A stretch of DNA of 64,000 nt. Origin: Cryobacterium arcticum. Lineage in GTDB: Bacteria; Actinomycetota; Actinomycetes; Actinomycetales; Microbacteriaceae. The stretch is taken from assembly GCF_003185895.1 (NCBI RefSeq), contig NZ_QHLY01000009.1, positions 141,916 through 205,915 of the forward strand, given 5' to 3'. The position numbers were made by a program, and so were the translations under genes. Shown here piece after piece: positions 5,488 to 44,395 of the stretch. Position 1 is the first letter of the stretch, and each line of letters starts with the position of its first letter. Under the pieces are notes generated by a model. The model was not told where the DNA came from. It did not search any database and was given only the letters and a program-made list of their open reading frames with translations.

Positions 5488-5552
5488 TCGCGAGAGCGGC
5501 TCAGTGGTTGCCACGCGGGCACCAAGCAGCCACAAGACCGCTGTCGCGAGAT
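5488..5552. repeat. Palindromic repeat, family A copy 2
   Basis: Second tandem copy. The left arm TCGCGAGAGCGGC (from 5488) pairs with CCGCTGTCGCGA (5538-5549). The interior GTGGTTGCC...AGCAGCCAC corresponds to the same position in copies 1 and 3. The arm changes are partly compensatory, which suggests that pairing matters. Confidence 0.65.
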
Positions 5553-5557
5553 GAACA

Positions 5558-5625
5558 TCTCGCGAAAGCGGCAAAGTGGTTGCTTCGCGAGTGCCCAGGC
5601 AGCAACACGACCGCTTTCGCGAGAT
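5558..5625. repeat. Palindromic repeat, family A copy 3
   Basis: Best conserved copy of the tandem trio: TCTCGCGAAAGCGG (5558-5571) is the exact reverse complement of CCGCTTTCGCGAGA (5611-5624), with a ~39-nt interior that contains further imperfect pairing. It ends 20 bp before the stop codon of the ABC exporter gene on the minus strand, so it could act as a transcript-end hairpin for either convergent gene. A fourth copy lies at 10672-10733. Confidence 0.7.
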
Positions 5626-10671: not shown

Positions 10672-10733
10672 ACGCGAAAGAGGCCATGTGGTCACCTCAA
10701 TGAATTGAGGCAACCCCATGGCCGCTTTCGCGA
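10672..10733. repeat. Palindromic repeat, family A copy 4
   Basis: The most complete hairpin of family A: 30-nt arms 10672-10701 and 10704-10733 match at 25 of 30 positions around a 2-nt loop. Outer arms are CGCGAAAGAGGCCATG and CATGGCCGCTTTCGCG; inner arms are CCTCAAT and ATTGAGG. It fills the gap between convergent stop codons (10659 and 10743) and may serve as a bidirectional transcript end. Confidence 0.75.
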
Positions 10734-28569: not shown

Positions 28570-28599
28570 ACGAACGGCGGCCAGATGGCCGCCGTTCGT
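28570..28599. terminator. Hairpin terminator between yihY and sdhB
   Basis: A perfect 13-bp stem: ACGAACGGCGGCC (28570-28582) and GGCCGCCGTTCGT (28587-28599) with a 4-nt loop. It lies 16 bp after the sdhB stop on the minus strand, hence the likely end of the sdhCDAB transcript. The following U-tract is weak (GTCGTTAACG), common in GC-rich genomes. Confidence 0.7.
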
Positions 28600-40179: not shown

Positions 40180-40607
40180 GCGACGTGACAGACCCGGCAA
40201 CGCCCGCCATCGACTGGGAGGCCCTGCGCACCGCGGCGGCCGAAGCGATGACGCACGCCTACGTGCCGTATTCGAAGTTCCCCGTCGGCGCCGCCGCCTT
40301 GGTCTCCGACGGCCGGGTGATCAGCGGCTGCAACGTGGAGAACGCGTCGTACGGCCTCACCCTCTGCGCCGAGTGCGCGCTGGTGTCGGTGCTGCACCTC
40401 ACCGGCGGTGGCCAGCTCGTGGCGTTCAGCTGCGTTGACGGCAACGGCAACACCCTGATGCCGTGCGGTCGCTGCCGCCAGCTGCTCTACGAACACTCAG
40501 CACCAGGCATGCTGCTCGAGACCGTCTCGGGCGTCCGCACCATCGACGAAGTTCTGCCGGATGCCTTCGGGCCCCGCCAACTCGCCGCCTACCGGGAAGA
40601 AAACTGA
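40176..40607 (+). CDS. cdd: Cytidine deaminase
   Basis: Zinc-dependent hydrolytic deamination of cytidine/deoxycytidine to uridine/deoxyuridine, 143 residues, the small homotetrameric type. Substrate loop PYSKFPVGAAAL and GCNVENASYGLT, zinc motif CAEC (Cys-Ala-Glu) and PCGRCRQLL are complete. GTG 40176 overlaps the permease stop; the longer frame from 39759 is inside the permease. Its stop overlaps the deoA ATG by one base (TGATG). Confidence 0.97.
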   Translation: MSDVTDPATPAIDWEALRTAAAEAMTHAYVPYSKFPVGAAALVSDGRVISGCNVENASYGLTLCAECALVSVLHLTGGGQLVAFSCVDGNGNTLMPCGRCRQLLYEHSAPGMLLETVSGVRTIDEVLPDAFGPRQLAAYREEN

Positions 40608-41923
40608 TGAGCTCCACCCCAGCCCGCACCATCGAGGCGTTCGACGCCGTCGACCTGATCCACGCGAAGCGTGACCACAGCGAACTTTCCACGCCGCAGA
40701 TCGACTGGTTGATCGACGCGTACACCCGCGGTTATGTGGGCGACGAGCAGATGGCCGCCATGACCATGGCGATCTTCCTCAACGGCATGTCCCGCCGGGA
40801 GATCCGCGACATGACGATGGCCATGATCAACTCCGGCGAGCGGATGAGCTTCGAGGGGCTGGGCAAGCCCACCACCGACAAGCACTCCACCGGCGGAGTC
40901 GGCGACAAGATCACCCTGCCGTTGATGCCCCTCGTGGCGGTTTTCGGTGCCGCGGTGCCGCAGCTCTCCGGCCGTGGCCTCGGCCACACCGGCGGCACCC
41001 TCGACAAGCTCGAGTCCATCCCGGGCTGGCGCGCCAACCTCAGCAACGAGGAGATGTTCGCCCAGCTGCAGGATGTCGGCGGCGTGATCTGCGCCGCGGG
41101 CAGCGGTCTGGCCCCCGCCGACGGCAAGCTCTACGCCCTGCGCGACATCACCGGCACCGTCGAGGCGATCCCGCTGATCGCCTCGTCGATCATGTCGAAG
41201 AAGATCGCCGAGGGTACCAGCGCCCTGGTGCTCGACGTCAAGTTCGGTTCCGGCGCCTTTTTGAAAGACATCGAGCGCTCCCGCGAACTGGCCCGCACCA
41301 TGGTCGCGCTCGGTGAGGACGCCGGAGTGGCGACATCCGCTCTGCTCACCAACATGAACGTGCCGCTCGGACTGGCCATCGGCAACGCCAACGAGGTGCG
41401 CGAATCGCTCGAGGTACTCGCCGGCGGCGGCCCCGCCGACGTGGTGGAGCTCACCGTGGCCCTCGCCCGCGAGATGCTGACCCTGGCCGGCATCGTCGAC
41501 GTCGACGTGGAGGCCGCCCTGAAGGATGGCCGCGCGATGGACAAGTGGAACGCGGTCATCCGCGCCCAGGGCGGAGACCCGACCGCGGTGATGCCCGTGG
41601 CGAAGGAGACCCACACCGTGCTCGCCGACCGCGACGGCGTGCTCGTCGATCAGCAGGCGCTGCCGTTCGGCATCGGTGCCTGGCGCCTCGGCGCTGGCCG
41701 CGCCCGCAAGCAGGACCCGGTGCAGCACGCTGCGGGCATCGACCTGCACGCCAAGCCCGGCGACACCGTGCGCCGCGGCGAGCCCCTCTTCACTCTCAGC
41801 GCCGACGAGCCGGAGCGCTTCGCCCGGGCCCTCGAGGCCGTCGAAGGCGCCTGGCGCATCGGCGACCCGGGTGAACCCATCCTCGACGGCGGCCCCCTGA
41901 TCGCCGAGCGCATCGGCAACTAG
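40607..41923 (+). CDS. deoA: Thymidine / pyrimidine-nucleoside phosphorylase
   Basis: Splits (deoxy)thymidine or uridine into base and (deoxy)ribose 1-phosphate. The 438-residue product contains the family signature SGRGLGHTGGTLDKLESIPGW and phosphate-binding KHSTGGVGDK, with a complete C-terminal domain. ATG 40607 overlaps the cdd stop. It is the last gene before the operon is interrupted by paired palindromes and the reversed DUF559-type gene; add resumes on the same strand at 43.3 kb. Confidence 0.96.
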   Translation: MSSTPARTIEAFDAVDLIHAKRDHSELSTPQIDWLIDAYTRGYVGDEQMAAMTMAIFLNGMSRREIRDMTMAMINSGERMSFEGLGKPTTDKHSTGGVGDKITLPLMPLVAVFGAAVPQLSGRGLGHTGGTLDKLESIPGWRANLSNEEMFAQLQDVGGVICAAGSGLAPADGKLYALRDITGTVEAIPLIASSIMSKKIAEGTSALVLDVKFGSGAFLKDIERSRELARTMVALGEDAGVATSALLTNMNVPLGLAIGNANEVRESLEVLAGGGPADVVELTVALAREMLTLAGIVDVDVEAALKDGRAMDKWNAVIRAQGGDPTAVMPVAKETHTVLADRDGVLVDQQALPFGIGAWRLGAGRARKQDPVQHAAGIDLHAKPGDTVRRGEPLFTLSADEPERFARALEAVEGAWRIGDPGEPILDGGPLIAERIGN

Positions 41924-41948: not shown

Positions 41949-42004
41949 CGACTTGCCGCAAAAACCCCCTTCACGCGCGCTGACGGGGTTTTTGGCGTAA
42001 GTCG
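41949..42004. repeat. Palindromic repeat, family C copy 1
   Basis: A 56-bp hairpin: outer arms CGACTT and AAGTCG, inner arms CGCAAAAACCCC and GGGGTTTTTGGCG; 17 of the 20 outermost pairs match. The interior has CACGCGCGCTGA. GGGG-TTTTT at the right would work as an intrinsic terminator for deoA, 26 bp after its stop. Confidence 0.78.
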
Positions 42005-42020
42005 CGATGGGCGCATCTGT

Positions 42021-42077
42021 CGACTTGCCGCAAAGGCCCCCATCACGCGCGCTGACGGGGGTTTTTGGCGTAAGTCG
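42021..42077. repeat. Palindromic repeat, family C copy 2
   Basis: Near-identical direct repeat of copy 1, 16 bp further on: CGACTTGCCGCAAA at the left, TTTTTGGCGTAAGTCG at the right, with CCCCC and GGGGG inner arms around CATCACGCGCGCTGAC. Lies just before the stop of the reversed gene at 42104. Confidence 0.78.
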
Positions 42078-42103
42078 ACGCATAGGTGCGGGGCCCTGTC
42101 GGG

Positions 42104-43021
42104 TCACTTCGGCCGGGTGTGGGGGCGCCAGCCGCGCGAACGCAGCGCCTGATCGACCCGGGAGACCACGTCGGCGTCCGGCGTCGCCTTGGTCACCCTG
42201 ATGACACGCCAGTCCTCAGCCATCACCCCGTCGAGCCGATCCACATCGCGGGCGAACTGGGCGTCATCAGTGCGGTGCTGCTCCCCGTCGTACTCCACCA
42301 GGGTGCGGTACCGGAGGTAGACCAGATCTCCACGTACGCGGCGGCGCTGATGGCGCAGCGGGAGGTACACGTTGGTTTGCGGTTCGGGCAGGCCCGCCCG
42401 CACGAGCAGCAGCCGGAGGCGGGTCTCCTGGCGCGACTCGACGCGGGGCCGCACCCACTCCAGCGCCTGGCGTAGCCGACGGATACCGCGCTGGCCGGCC
42501 CGCTGGGCCACCACTGACGCGAGTTCTTCGGCCGTGTACGGAGGATCCAGCACCCCGAGGAGATGGTCCCCGAGCGCAATAAGGTCGTCCAGGCCCACGA
42601 TGGCTGCCAGGTCGCACCAGGTGGTCAGGGGGTTCTGCACGGTGAGCCCGCCGACTATCCACAGCTCGGGTCGGCTGATCACCGTGTGCCCGGCGATCCC
42701 GGCGCCCTGCGGTGCCCGGTCAGGCGCGACTGCGCTCACATGCAGACGGAGGTCGCGGGTGACGTAGCGCGGCAGGGGCATCCCGAGCAGTTGGGCCGCC
42801 GTCACCTGGCTGAAGTAGTGGCCGGTCGGCATCACCGCCGCATACGCCCTGGCCCGGTTGGATACCTCGCGCGGCGTGCCGGCTGCGACCCTGACGCCAT
42901 GGAACGGTGCTTCCAGATCGTTCGCAGACAGGCGCTTGGGTGTGACGCCGGCCAGTCGGGCCTGGGCAACGGTGAACCCGTCGGGCGGAAGGCTGCGGGG
43001 GAGCTCCGTTCGCTTGTGCAT
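42104..43021 (-). CDS. AbiEi-like N-terminal / DUF559 (Vsr-like) protein of unknown function
   Basis: A 305-residue protein of a kind common as scattered single genes in actinobacteria. The N-terminal third (FTVAQARLAGVTPKRLSANDL) resembles the winged-helix of AbiEi-type antitoxin domains. The C-terminal ~70 residues carry LVEYDGEQHRT and FARDVDRLDGVMAEDWRVIRVT, the DUF559/Vsr-like endonuclease fold with candidate catalytic Glu-Asp and Gln residues. No toxin partner is adjacent. It is reversed relative to the salvage genes on both sides, and two family C palindromes lie on each side, which suggests an inserted islet. Activity is not known; a role in DNA cleavage or defence is inference. Confidence 0.8.
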   Translation of the reverse strand: MHKRTELPRSLPPDGFTVAQARLAGVTPKRLSANDLEAPFHGVRVAAGTPREVSNRARAYAAVMPTGHYFSQVTAAQLLGMPLPRYVTRDLRLHVSAVAPDRAPQGAGIAGHTVISRPELWIVGGLTVQNPLTTWCDLAAIVGLDDLIALGDHLLGVLDPPYTAEELASVVAQRAGQRGIRRLRQALEWVRPRVESRQETRLRLLLVRAGLPEPQTNVYLPLRHQRRRVRGDLVYLRYRTLVEYDGEQHRTDDAQFARDVDRLDGVMAEDWRVIRVTKATPDADVVSRVDQALRSRGWRPHTRPK

Positions 43022-43081
43022 CCGCCCAAACTGTCAGCTCTGCGCGCTGCACGTCGGAGTTATCCACCACTGCCACCAACA

Positions 43082-43139
43082 CGACTTGCCGCACATTTGC
43101 CCTGCGCGCGACGCTCAAGGGAACTTTTGCCCGAAGTCG
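43082..43139. repeat. Palindromic repeat, family C copy 3
   Basis: A 58-bp element with left arm CGACTTGCCGCA and right arm TTTTGCCCGAAGTCG; interior CTGCGCGCGACGCTC. It belongs to family C by its arms but its interior differs from copies 1 and 2. It begins 60 bp upstream of the reversed gene's start. Confidence 0.7.
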
Positions 43140-43155
43140 AAGACGGGCCTGACGC

Positions 43156-43212
43156 CGACTTGCCGCAAAGTTGCCCGTCAGTGGAACTGATGGGGTGTTT
43201 TGCCCGAAGTCG
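43156..43212. repeat. Palindromic repeat, family C copy 4
   Basis: A 57-bp element directly following copy 3: CGACTTGCCGCAAA at the left, GTTTTGCCCGAAGTCG at the right, and an inner hairpin CGTCAGT-GGA-ACTGATG. It lies 89 bp before the add start. Confidence 0.7.
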
Positions 43213-43300
43213 AGACCCGGGCGGATGTGGCGGCGACGGAACGCTCCGAGCAGGGGAGCGATAGATTGAGTAAGTGAATACCAGCTCAGAGGAATACCTG

Positions 43301-44395
43301 ATGCCCGGCAGCGGCATCAGCATCGACGCCCTGCCCAAGGTCTCCCTGCACGACCACCTCGACGGCGGGCTGCGACCGGCCACGATCCTCGAGCTGGCCG
43401 AGACCATCGGCCTCGAGCTGCCCGCCGCCACCGAGGAGGGCTTGGCTGCGTGGTTCGCCCGCGAAGCCAACTCCGGCAACCTGGTGGACTACATCAAGAC
43501 CTTCGAAATCACCGTCGGCGTCATGCAGACCCACGACGGCCTCGCGCGCGTGGCCCAGGAGTTCGTCGAAGACCTGGCCCTCGACGGCATCATCTACGGT
43601 GAAGTGCGCTGGGCGCCCGAGCAGCACCTCACCGCCGGCCTCAGCCTCGACCAGGCCGTCGACGCCGTGCAGGAGGGCATCGAAGCCGGCATCGCCCGGG
43701 TCGCCCAGGCCGGCATGACGATCAAGATCGGCCAGCTGATCACCGCGATGCGGCACACCGACCGGAGCCTTGAGGTCGCCGAACTCGCCGTGCGCCACCG
43801 CGACCTCGGCGTGGTCGGCTTCGACATCGCCGGTGCAGAGCTCGGCTACCCGGCCGGCGCGCACACCGCCGCCTTCGACTACCTGGCCCAGAACCTCTTC
43901 CCCGTCACCGTGCACGCCGGCGAGGCCGACGGCCTCGACAGCATCCGTGGCGCGCTCTTCGCCGGCCGCGCCCTGCGTCTGGGCCACGGCGTTCGCCTGG
44001 CCGAAGACATCGAGATCGGCCGAGAAGACCAGGACAACACCTACGTCACCCTCGGCCCGCTCGCCCAGTGGGTGCGCGACCGGGAGATCCCGCTCGAGCT
44101 CAGCCCGTCGTCCAACCTGCAGACCGGAGCTATCGCCGCCTGGGGCAGCGACCTGCTCGACCACCCGTTCGACCTGCTCTACCAGCTCGGCTTCCGGGTC
44201 ACCGTCAATACCGACAATCGCCTGATGAGCGCCACCTCGCTCAGCCGGGAGCTGGCCCTGCTGACGGATGCCTTCGGCTACGACCTCGACGACCTCGAGG
44301 CCCTGCAGCTCAACGCCGCGTCGGCGGCATTCCTGCCCCTCGAAGAGCGCGAAGAACTCGCCGACGCCATCGTCGCCGGCTTCGCCGACGCCTAG
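43301..44395 (+). CDS. add: Adenosine deaminase
   Basis: Metal-dependent deamination of (deoxy)adenosine to (deoxy)inosine, 364 residues. Metal-binding HDHLDGG near the N-terminus, VHAGEADG (catalytic Glu region), LGHGVRL and ELSPSSNLQTGA, and NTDNRLMS in the place of the usual TDDP motif; this variant is typical of one actinobacterial group. AGAGGA (43288-43293) supports ATG 43301. GTG 43274 is also open in frame and follows a -10-like TAGATT by 6 nt, so a leaderless longer form is an alternative. It supplies inosine to PNP. Confidence 0.93.
   Translation: MPGSGISIDALPKVSLHDHLDGGLRPATILELAETIGLELPAATEEGLAAWFAREANSGNLVDYIKTFEITVGVMQTHDGLARVAQEFVEDLALDGIIYGEVRWAPEQHLTAGLSLDQAVDAVQEGIEAGIARVAQAGMTIKIGQLITAMRHTDRSLEVAELAVRHRDLGVVGFDIAGAELGYPAGAHTAAFDYLAQNLFPVTVHAGEADGLDSIRGALFAGRALRLGHGVRLAEDIEIGREDQDNTYVTLGPLAQWVRDREIPLELSPSSNLQTGAIAAWGSDLLDHPFDLLYQLGFRVTVNTDNRLMSATSLSRELALLTDAFGYDLDDLEALQLNAASAAFLPLEEREELADAIVAGFADA

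Follow-up and report, generated by a model that had tools for sequence, protein, structure and literature searches.

A reversed gene and the four palindromes of about 57 bp that bracket it (family C), lying between deoA and add in a 64,000-nucleotide stretch of Cryobacterium arcticum DNA (the window, G000:C13:141916-205915, from a 4.3-Mb assembly in 13 contigs, genome G000), probably form the master locus of a system resembling repetitive extragenic palindromic (REP) sequences, in which the encoded nuclease would bind and cut its own palindromes and so spread them or turn them over. The pattern is general: the gene belongs to a nuclease-like family, many members of which are bracketed by their own kind of ~60-bp palindrome. 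Association of gene and palindromes, cognacy, co-divergence, dispersal, and turnover were all observed, in addition to the architecture of the window locus. On balance we favor a second, independently evolved REP-type system, in which an AbiEi-Vsr endonuclease would recognize private palindromes of ~60 bp as double-stranded sites for a dimer, cut them, and cause them to multiply, turn over, and invert across Actinobacteria, with specificity re-evolving along with the enzyme and several private pairs per genome. The gene/palindrome pairs look like a selfish or domesticated repeat system.

The 305-amino-acid gene is antisense to deoA and add and carries two palindromes of 56 to 58 bp on each side. 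The strand of its open reading frame (ORF) and the Pfam names of the neighbors, including cytidine deaminase for cdd, which overlaps deoA by 4 nt with the starts chosen here, bear out the original prediction of one reversed gene within a cdd-deoA-add salvage operon. That prediction had also described four palindromes with common ends and side-specific interiors, and so they proved: all four start with CGACTTGCCGCA and end with AAGTCG, and the second arm reads CGACTTACGCC.. in the deoA-side palindromes and CGACTTCGGGC.. in the add-side palindromes. With up to one mismatch allowed, the 12-mer CGACTTGCCGCA matched the window four times, each time exactly, against 0.87 matches expected, and 1 of 100 shuffles reached four. 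Its eight exact occurrences in the whole genome comprise the four window palindromes, one in a solo palindrome pair (L003, G000:C9:1657723-1657852), and three in sequence read as coding. The add-side pair is imperfect, and an ungapped hairpin finder (score 12) detected the deoA-side pair only.

The AlphaFold2 model of the protein, based on a 48-row alignment, had a predicted local distance difference test (pLDDT) score of 93.5 and a predicted template modeling (pTM) score of 0.89. Foldseek alone gave no match to this model at E ≤ 0.001; the fold assignment rests on re-scoring of the Foldseek candidates with VIA-align 2 and covers the families in that list. By this scoring, residues 196 to 298 matched the catalytic domain of I-Bth0305I (3r3p_A; Z 11.8, root mean square deviation [rmsd] 2.4, 94 residues aligned) and residues 194 to 297 matched Vsr (1cw0; Z 9.5). 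The N-terminal part matched the AbiEi antitoxin of Streptococcus agalactiae (6y8q, residues 3 to 191; Z 9.3, rmsd 6.0, 176 residues) and Rv2827c (1zel, residues 1 to 192; Z 6.8), and the lower-ranked matches included restriction enzymes, e.g., AbaSI and PvuRts1I. Judged by the model and these matches, the guess that the cargo joins an AbiEi-like part to a Vsr/DUF559-like nuclease was a good one. The Pfam matches of the window protein itself were weak (DUF559, E 0.076; MTES_1575, E 0.083); among the aligned family members, 42 of 48 matched DUF559 and 40 of 48 matched MTES_1575. Residues E199, R203, D232, G246, H249, D259, and R262 were invariant in all 55 full-length members found by profile search in 26 Cryobacterium genomes; position 243 was E in 53 and D in 2 of them, position 245 was D in 20, and Q248 varied. 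Conservation is quoted from this genus set because the peptide VEYDGEQH had itself served as a search pattern for homologues. The invariance of these active-site-like residues makes a working nuclease plausible. The DNA-binding half is the more variable one, with identities of 54% for residues 1 to 60, 62% for residues 61 to 192, and 75% for residues 193 to 305 (265 pairs).

The nearest named homologues of the window protein were from Cryobacterium, and a search of 396 genomes of the phylum, with at most five candidates scored in each, gave homologues at E ≤ 1e-10 in 131 of them. Palindromes were sought at 80 homologous loci from Cryobacterium, Agromyces, Herbiconiux, Microbacterium, Agreia, Leucobacter, Arthrobacter, Mycolicibacterium, and others, which are not mutually independent. 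With a long palindrome defined by cutoffs fixed after a first look (score of ≥12, ≥40 nt, within 300 bp upstream or 250 bp downstream), one was present upstream of 56 of 77 testable homologues and downstream of 44 of 80, on at least one side in 67 of 80, and on both sides in 33 of 80. Control genes from the same loci had a palindrome upstream in 13 of 192 cases and downstream in 16 of 192, and palindrome density was 1.96/kb in the gene flanks versus 0.10/kb elsewhere in the loci. The median palindrome length was 61 (interquartile range, 57 to 63; n = 192, with some genes counted twice). At a looser cutoff, a palindrome was found upstream of 34 and downstream of 43 of 64 gene loci from the 26 Cryobacterium genomes, and 15 of 30 loci from the phylum search had one upstream. 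The original prediction had asked whether other DUF559 genes are bracketed as well; they are, by palindrome kinds of their own and not by family C, and the idea that family C marks DUF559 genes in general was therefore rejected.

Several further copies of the gene were seen. One paralogue (L090/L097) has an intact frame of 304 amino acids; in G000, another is broken in two pieces (G000:C9:1383203-1384157; L092 and L094), and a more distant one (G000:C9:1312160-1312948; L093) is bracketed by another palindrome kind (CAACTGTTGCCCGTGCGGACATTTGCGCC..). At locus L042 (4880-5780), dense imperfect palindromes of one kind lie next to a frame-broken gene copy.

The palindromes upstream and downstream of a gene match each other. 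The mean local score between them was 36.1 within a locus (33 loci) versus 9.3 (standard deviation, 4.0) between loci. A palindrome's own partner was strictly the best match in 28 of the 33 loci, one other palindrome was equal or better in 4, and at the one failing locus, L013, 12 others were equal to or better than the own partner. Palindromes also diverge along with the proteins, as analyzed for the 94 of 108 genes that have palindromes: palindrome similarity followed protein identity (Mantel r 0.56, 0 of 500 permutations; Spearman 0.26), and the share of pairs with a common palindrome (score of ≥20) was about 1% at 30 to 50% protein identity, 11% at 50 to 60%, 18% at 60 to 70%, and 82 to 84% above 70%.

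The clearest evidence that the gene and scattered palindromes belong together is the dispersal of two kinds in the genomes of their owners. Arm patterns read off the genes of other species, L238 and L142, were searched in the 26 Cryobacterium genomes with up to 3 mismatches. The L238 pattern had 90 + 87 matches in its own genome, G400, where one solo copy had been known beforehand and the reversed control had 0; each of the other 25 genomes had 0 to 8 matches, with 0 to 6 for the reversed controls there. The L142 pattern had 21 + 24 matches in its own genome, G397, 1 each in G400 and G412, and 0 in 23 genomes. Since one match per arm is possible, this corresponds to about 90 copies of the L238 kind in G400 and 20 to 30 copies of the L142 kind in G397.

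Three repeat models were also used, R1 for family C, R2 for family B (built from 10 sequences), and R3 for a mycobacterial kind. R1 acts as a sequence profile because RNAalifold gave it only 3 base pairs, and the R1 and R2 scores of the window palindromes hold by construction because those palindromes were among the building sequences. All counts are two-strand matches among at most 150 candidates scored per genome, and one palindrome is often counted twice. R1 matches were found in 9 of the 26 Cryobacterium genomes (G417, at least 150; G418, 100; G398, 79; G405, 50; G401, 32; G000, 26; G415, 19; G397, 12; G411, 1) and in none of the other 17. For families C and B, gene flanks covered 64 loci, nearly all scoring >200 bits, which are part of the family genes of the 26 genomes. 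Among these, strong R1 flanks (at least one match of ≥58 bits) were confined to the gene linked to deoA in G000 (by construction), G417, G418, and G398, with weaker ones at G415. Family B, with the ends CGCGARAGCGG..CCGCTYTCGCG, is the cognate of an intact paralogue (G000:C11:11669-12577) and not of the window gene; R2 matches occurred in 22 of 26 genomes and were strongest in the same clade of near relatives as family C, with strong gene flanks in G000, G398, G417, and G418 and no more than 41 bits at the others. R3 had matches in 18 of the 21 mycobacterial genomes; the top-scoring ones lay at the genes used to build it, and G430 had further copies of >55 bits on several more contigs. Family C palindromes at many other gaps, which the original prediction had taken to speak against a link with such genes, do occur in numbers; they do not remove the link, because the scattered copies look like the gene's cognate repeats.

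Equivalent gaps of related genomes differ in their palindromes. At the L003 site (11 aligned rows), two palindromes were present in G000, G417, and G401, three in G418, one partial in G398, and none in G405. In the gap at window position 10673 (12 rows), family B was present in G000, G417, G418, and G398 and absent from G405 and G401; in G400 the palindrome was of the kind that belongs to that genome's gene L238, in G408 it was of a further kind, and some other genomes had unrelated hairpins.

Spacing was analyzed at sites picked among the top-listed matches, five of which (L249 to L253) were picked since pairs had already been seen there. The family C sample comprised 79 copies from 43 loci, all of G417 except one from G418, standing singly or in arrays. 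All 32 intervals below 200 bp were 72 bp (5) or 73 bp (27), close to seven turns of the helix, and the window palindromes start 72 and 74 bp apart. Among 53 family B copies from 27 loci (24 from G417), the intervals below 100 bp were 71 to 73 bp in 15 cases, 82 bp in two, 93 bp in two, and 88 bp in one. The spacing of 72 to 73 bp may reflect proteins lined up along one face of double-stranded DNA, and the palindrome arms look like independent double-stranded half-sites. The 15- to 16-nt linkers of the G417 family C arrays (L251, L253, and L260 to L296) look weakly alike, and the L251 linker recurs after the last palindrome.

The G400 kind (L362 to L401) has a center of ~17 bp made up of a few exchangeable half modules (GCTAAAACG, GTCATTCGG, and GTTCTGA..), and its flanks are C-rich on the left and G-rich on the right. 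Across the 40 G400 copies, with the inner 9-nt modules sorted by rules set after looking, the same module occupied both halves in 10 of 28 cases versus 14.3 in shuffled data (95% range, 10 to 19), which is suggestive of half-site reassortment, with modules mixed between halves.

At the deoA-add locus itself, 12 of the 26 Cryobacterium genomes (G000 included) had the gene no more than 1.5 kb from deoA, deoA was directly followed by add in 7 (G399, G402, G406, G410, G413, G419, and G420), and the remaining 7 had other deoA/add arrangements. The uninterrupted junctions agree with the predicted one-gene islet, but the gene tree speaks against a fresh insertion: 18 of 19 deoA- or add-linked rows fell in one group (support 99/70, below the tool's firm-support mark), the sole exception being L025 from Diaminobutyricibacter, so that the gene looks like an old, mostly inherited resident. 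Recent insertion of a defense islet was rejected; the gene looks old at the locus, and its neighbors in the window include nothing defense-like. Its sequence has changed faster than those of deoA and add, with 68% identity of its product between the window and L010 compared with 95% for deoA and 89% for add, and 53%, 89%, and 76%, respectively, between the window and L013. Its orientation changed at least twice (L149/L329 of G411; L013 to L017): all ten rows of the window clade are opposite to deoA, and another clade runs in the direction of deoA, with G411 therein opposite again. Such changes would be expected if recombination or cutting took place at the palindromes on either side.

The observations can be joined in one scheme, in which dimer binding, cutting, and cutting as the cause of spread or mobilization are what we infer. 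The protein would bind a palindrome as a dimer, with one AbiEi-like half per ~25-bp arm, so that two protomers cover the whole palindrome and the Vsr-like halves could cut or nick within it. Repair of the break may then copy, delete, invert, or rearrange palindromes and now and then the gene between them. In this way the gene and its repeats would persist as a selfish or domesticated pair, and the joint divergence of protein specificity and palindromes would give rise to new private repeat families.

Several results weigh against this scheme. No palindrome was found on either side of 13 of the 80 homologues at the cutoff used, and the eight most distant DUF559-like loci (L119 to L126) had none upstream. 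No clear target duplication was seen at the sites of gain or loss in the L003 and window-10673 alignments. Arm pairing in the 79 family C copies was 0.741 compared with a shuffled mean of 0.733 (maximum of 300 shuffles, 0.750), i.e., the arms of family C are not kept complementary copy by copy. Part of the co-divergence simply reflects orthologues inheriting their flanks, and at the deoA-add locus the gene seems to have been passed on mostly by vertical descent. Because families C and B both center on a single clade of near relatives, these two are confounded with descent. Family C is present in G401 and G405 (32 and 50 two-strand matches, respectively) although other palindromes flank their orthologue beside deoA; both genomes also contain copies of family B, yet none of their genes examined was flanked by family B. 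These copies are read as relics, and they weaken the one-to-one link of gene and palindrome.

The best of the other explanations, which we consider doubtful, is that the AbiEi-like half is an autorepressor and the palindromes are its operators (and terminators), the nuclease half being idle or having some other job, with no mobilization. AbiEi repressors bind inverted repeats. The AbiEi-fold match, the arms that behave as independent double-stranded half-sites, and the position of the upstream palindromes at Microbacteriaceae loci, most of which end ~50 to 150 bp ahead of the start codon, would all fit such operators. Palindromes are found downstream of genes as well, however, and tens to ~90 scattered copies, gain and loss at equivalent gaps, and nuclease-site residues invariant in 55 of 55 members also speak against this reading.

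That the palindromes are REP-like repeats or miniature inverted-repeat transposable elements (MITEs) moved by another enzyme, with the gene hitchhiking between them, is improbable. Solo copies and arrays with a period of 72 to 73 bp away from the gene, and the relic copies in G401 and G405, fit such a passenger. Gene-specific palindrome matching, co-divergence, and dispersal restricted to the owner genome in two tests would not be expected if the gene were a random passenger, and no Y1 transposase was among the Pfam matches of 48 members, the genes near solo copies not having been scanned for a transposase.

Slightly less probable still is a role in defense, with a restriction-like enzyme and the scattered palindromes as self marks, decoys, or regulatory sites. 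Some matches agree with the hint of the original prediction at defense: one AbiEi model of PADLOC matched 21 of 48 family members, mREase_II 5, and PDC-S37 2, the NCBIfam family antiphage_ProA matched 1 of 48 (E 0.00014), and the lower-ranked fold matches to AbaSI and PvuRts1I point the same way. The window protein itself matched no PADLOC or NCBIfam family, its neighbors in the window are nucleoside-salvage genes with no defense gene among them, and each of the two palindrome kinds tested is restricted to a single genome, where it is dispersed. Least likely of all, and hardly to be expected, is that transcribed palindromes are processed or bound by the protein as RNA hairpins: the palindromic sequence and a frequent position close to gene ends would fit, but gene-sense mismatches show no wobble bias (G-T 67 versus A-C 71 upstream, 65 versus 68 downstream), no Rfam family matched at gathering score in 9 loci, and the array period is about seven helical turns. 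With neither arm covariation in family C nor a G-T bias, there is no reason to prefer an RNA hairpin and no need to invoke one of DNA.

The features of the window are listed in the table. The window also has a 30-nt inverted repeat at 28570-28599, whose sequence is related to neither family B nor family C.

Features of the deoA-add locus and solo family B palindromes (window coordinates)
Feature	Position	Strand	Basis or remark
Palindrome-associated AbiEi-Vsr-like gene, 305 amino acids	42104..43021	-	ORF, AlphaFold2 model, and fold matches
AbiEi-like DNA-binding half (putative, by fold), residues 3-191	42449..43015	-	VIA-align 6y8q Z 9.3, 1zel (Rv2827c) Z 6.8
Vsr/EDxHD-like nuclease domain (putative, by fold), residues 196-298	42128..42436	-	VIA-align 3r3p Z 11.8, 1cw0 Z 9.5
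Family C palindrome 1	41949..42004	+	deoA side
Family C palindrome 2	42021..42077	+	deoA side; starts 72 bp past start of palindrome 1
Family C palindrome 3	43082..43139	+	add side
Family C palindrome 4	43156..43212	+	add side; starts 74 bp past start of palindrome 3
deoA	40604-41923	+	Pfam: pyrimidine nucleoside phosphorylase
add	43274-44395	+	Pfam: adenosine deaminase
Solo family B palindrome, first of tandem pair	5489..5548	+	Read by eye; 72 bp start-to-start before the next; not among listed R2 matches
Solo family B palindrome, second of pair	5561..5621	+	R2 match G000:C13:147476-147536; one of the 10 R2-building sequences
Solo family B palindrome	10673..10732	+	R2 match, also an R2-building sequence; in the alignment, other species carry other hairpins or none in the gap

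Among known systems, the AbiEi-like half recalls AbiEi and Rv2827c in the fold of residues 3 to 191 (Z 9.3 and 6.8). Unlike in the AbiE toxin-antitoxin system, it is fused here to a nuclease, and no AbiEii toxin gene adjoins the window gene, whose neighbors are deoA and add (the neighbors of other homologues were not scanned). The C-terminal fold and the Pfam matches of relatives are shared with the Vsr, DUF559, and MTES_1575 nucleases. The likeness to I-Bth0305I and EDxHD homing endonucleases lies in the fold of the catalytic domain (Z 11.8) and in target size, the ~61-bp palindrome comparing with a target of nearly 60 bp on which I-Bth0305I is reported to dimerize (PMC3943268). Unlike I-Bth0305I, the gene here does not lie in an intron and its product has an extra AbiEi-like half and a predicted cleavage activity; unlike an EDxHD homing endonuclease, the gene has whole palindromes on both sides and does not split its target, if the palindrome is the target.

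The closest parallel is that of REPs with the REP-associated tyrosine transposases (RAYTs), together called REPtrons. The hallmarks reported for RAYTs, first described from Gammaproteobacteria, are flanking REPs, co-evolution, fast evolution, and abundance that follows the presence of the gene (PMC2817692); REP palindromes are given as 20 to 40 bp, and related genes flanked by terminal inverted repeats (TIRs) are mentioned for some other bacterial groups (PMC3733652). The family studied here shares with REP/RAYT the matching flanking palindromes (on at least one side in 67/80, on both in 33/80, own pair best in 28/33) and cognate copies dispersed in tens to hundreds with an abundance that tracks the gene, the latter only partly for families C and B (G401 and G405). 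Shared, too, are the co-divergence of gene and palindrome, a gene that is faster than its neighbors, and tandem arrays like those of bacterial interspersed mosaic elements (BIMEs). The enzyme differs, being AbiEi plus Vsr-like and not HUH/Y1 (IS200/IS605), and a Y1 transposase was absent from the six Pfam families matched by 48 members (DUF559, MTES_1575, and minor ones). The palindromes differ as well, at ~61 bp versus 20 to 40 bp (PMC3733652), with arms like double-stranded half-sites, and so do the hosts, Actinobacteria versus the Gammaproteobacteria of PMC2817692. Of the end motifs counted, GTAG within 6 nt of an end was found in 1 of 104 gene-flanking palindromes (L009 to L088), GTRG in 7, and CGTC in 8.

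In the open-licence literature, with most subscription papers outside the search, no description was found of DUF559/AbiEi-like or Vsr/MTES_1575 nucleases paired with palindromes or inverted repeats, and the system is therefore taken as new as a pairing of enzyme and repeat, its function being analogous to that of a REPtron. If this is true, a dedicated enzyme with private palindromes is a recurring solution, reached convergently in Actinobacteria with an enzyme like Vsr and homing endonucleases; part of the repeat-rich intergenic sequence in such genomes would be explained, and a natural series of protein/target pairs would become available for studying the evolution of DNA-binding specificity. 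The DUF559/AbiEi-like orphan genes of such genomes gain a testable function. Since the hallmarks of RAYTs are matched by a family without Y1 and nearly without the GTAG head, the system works like a REPtron and is not one.

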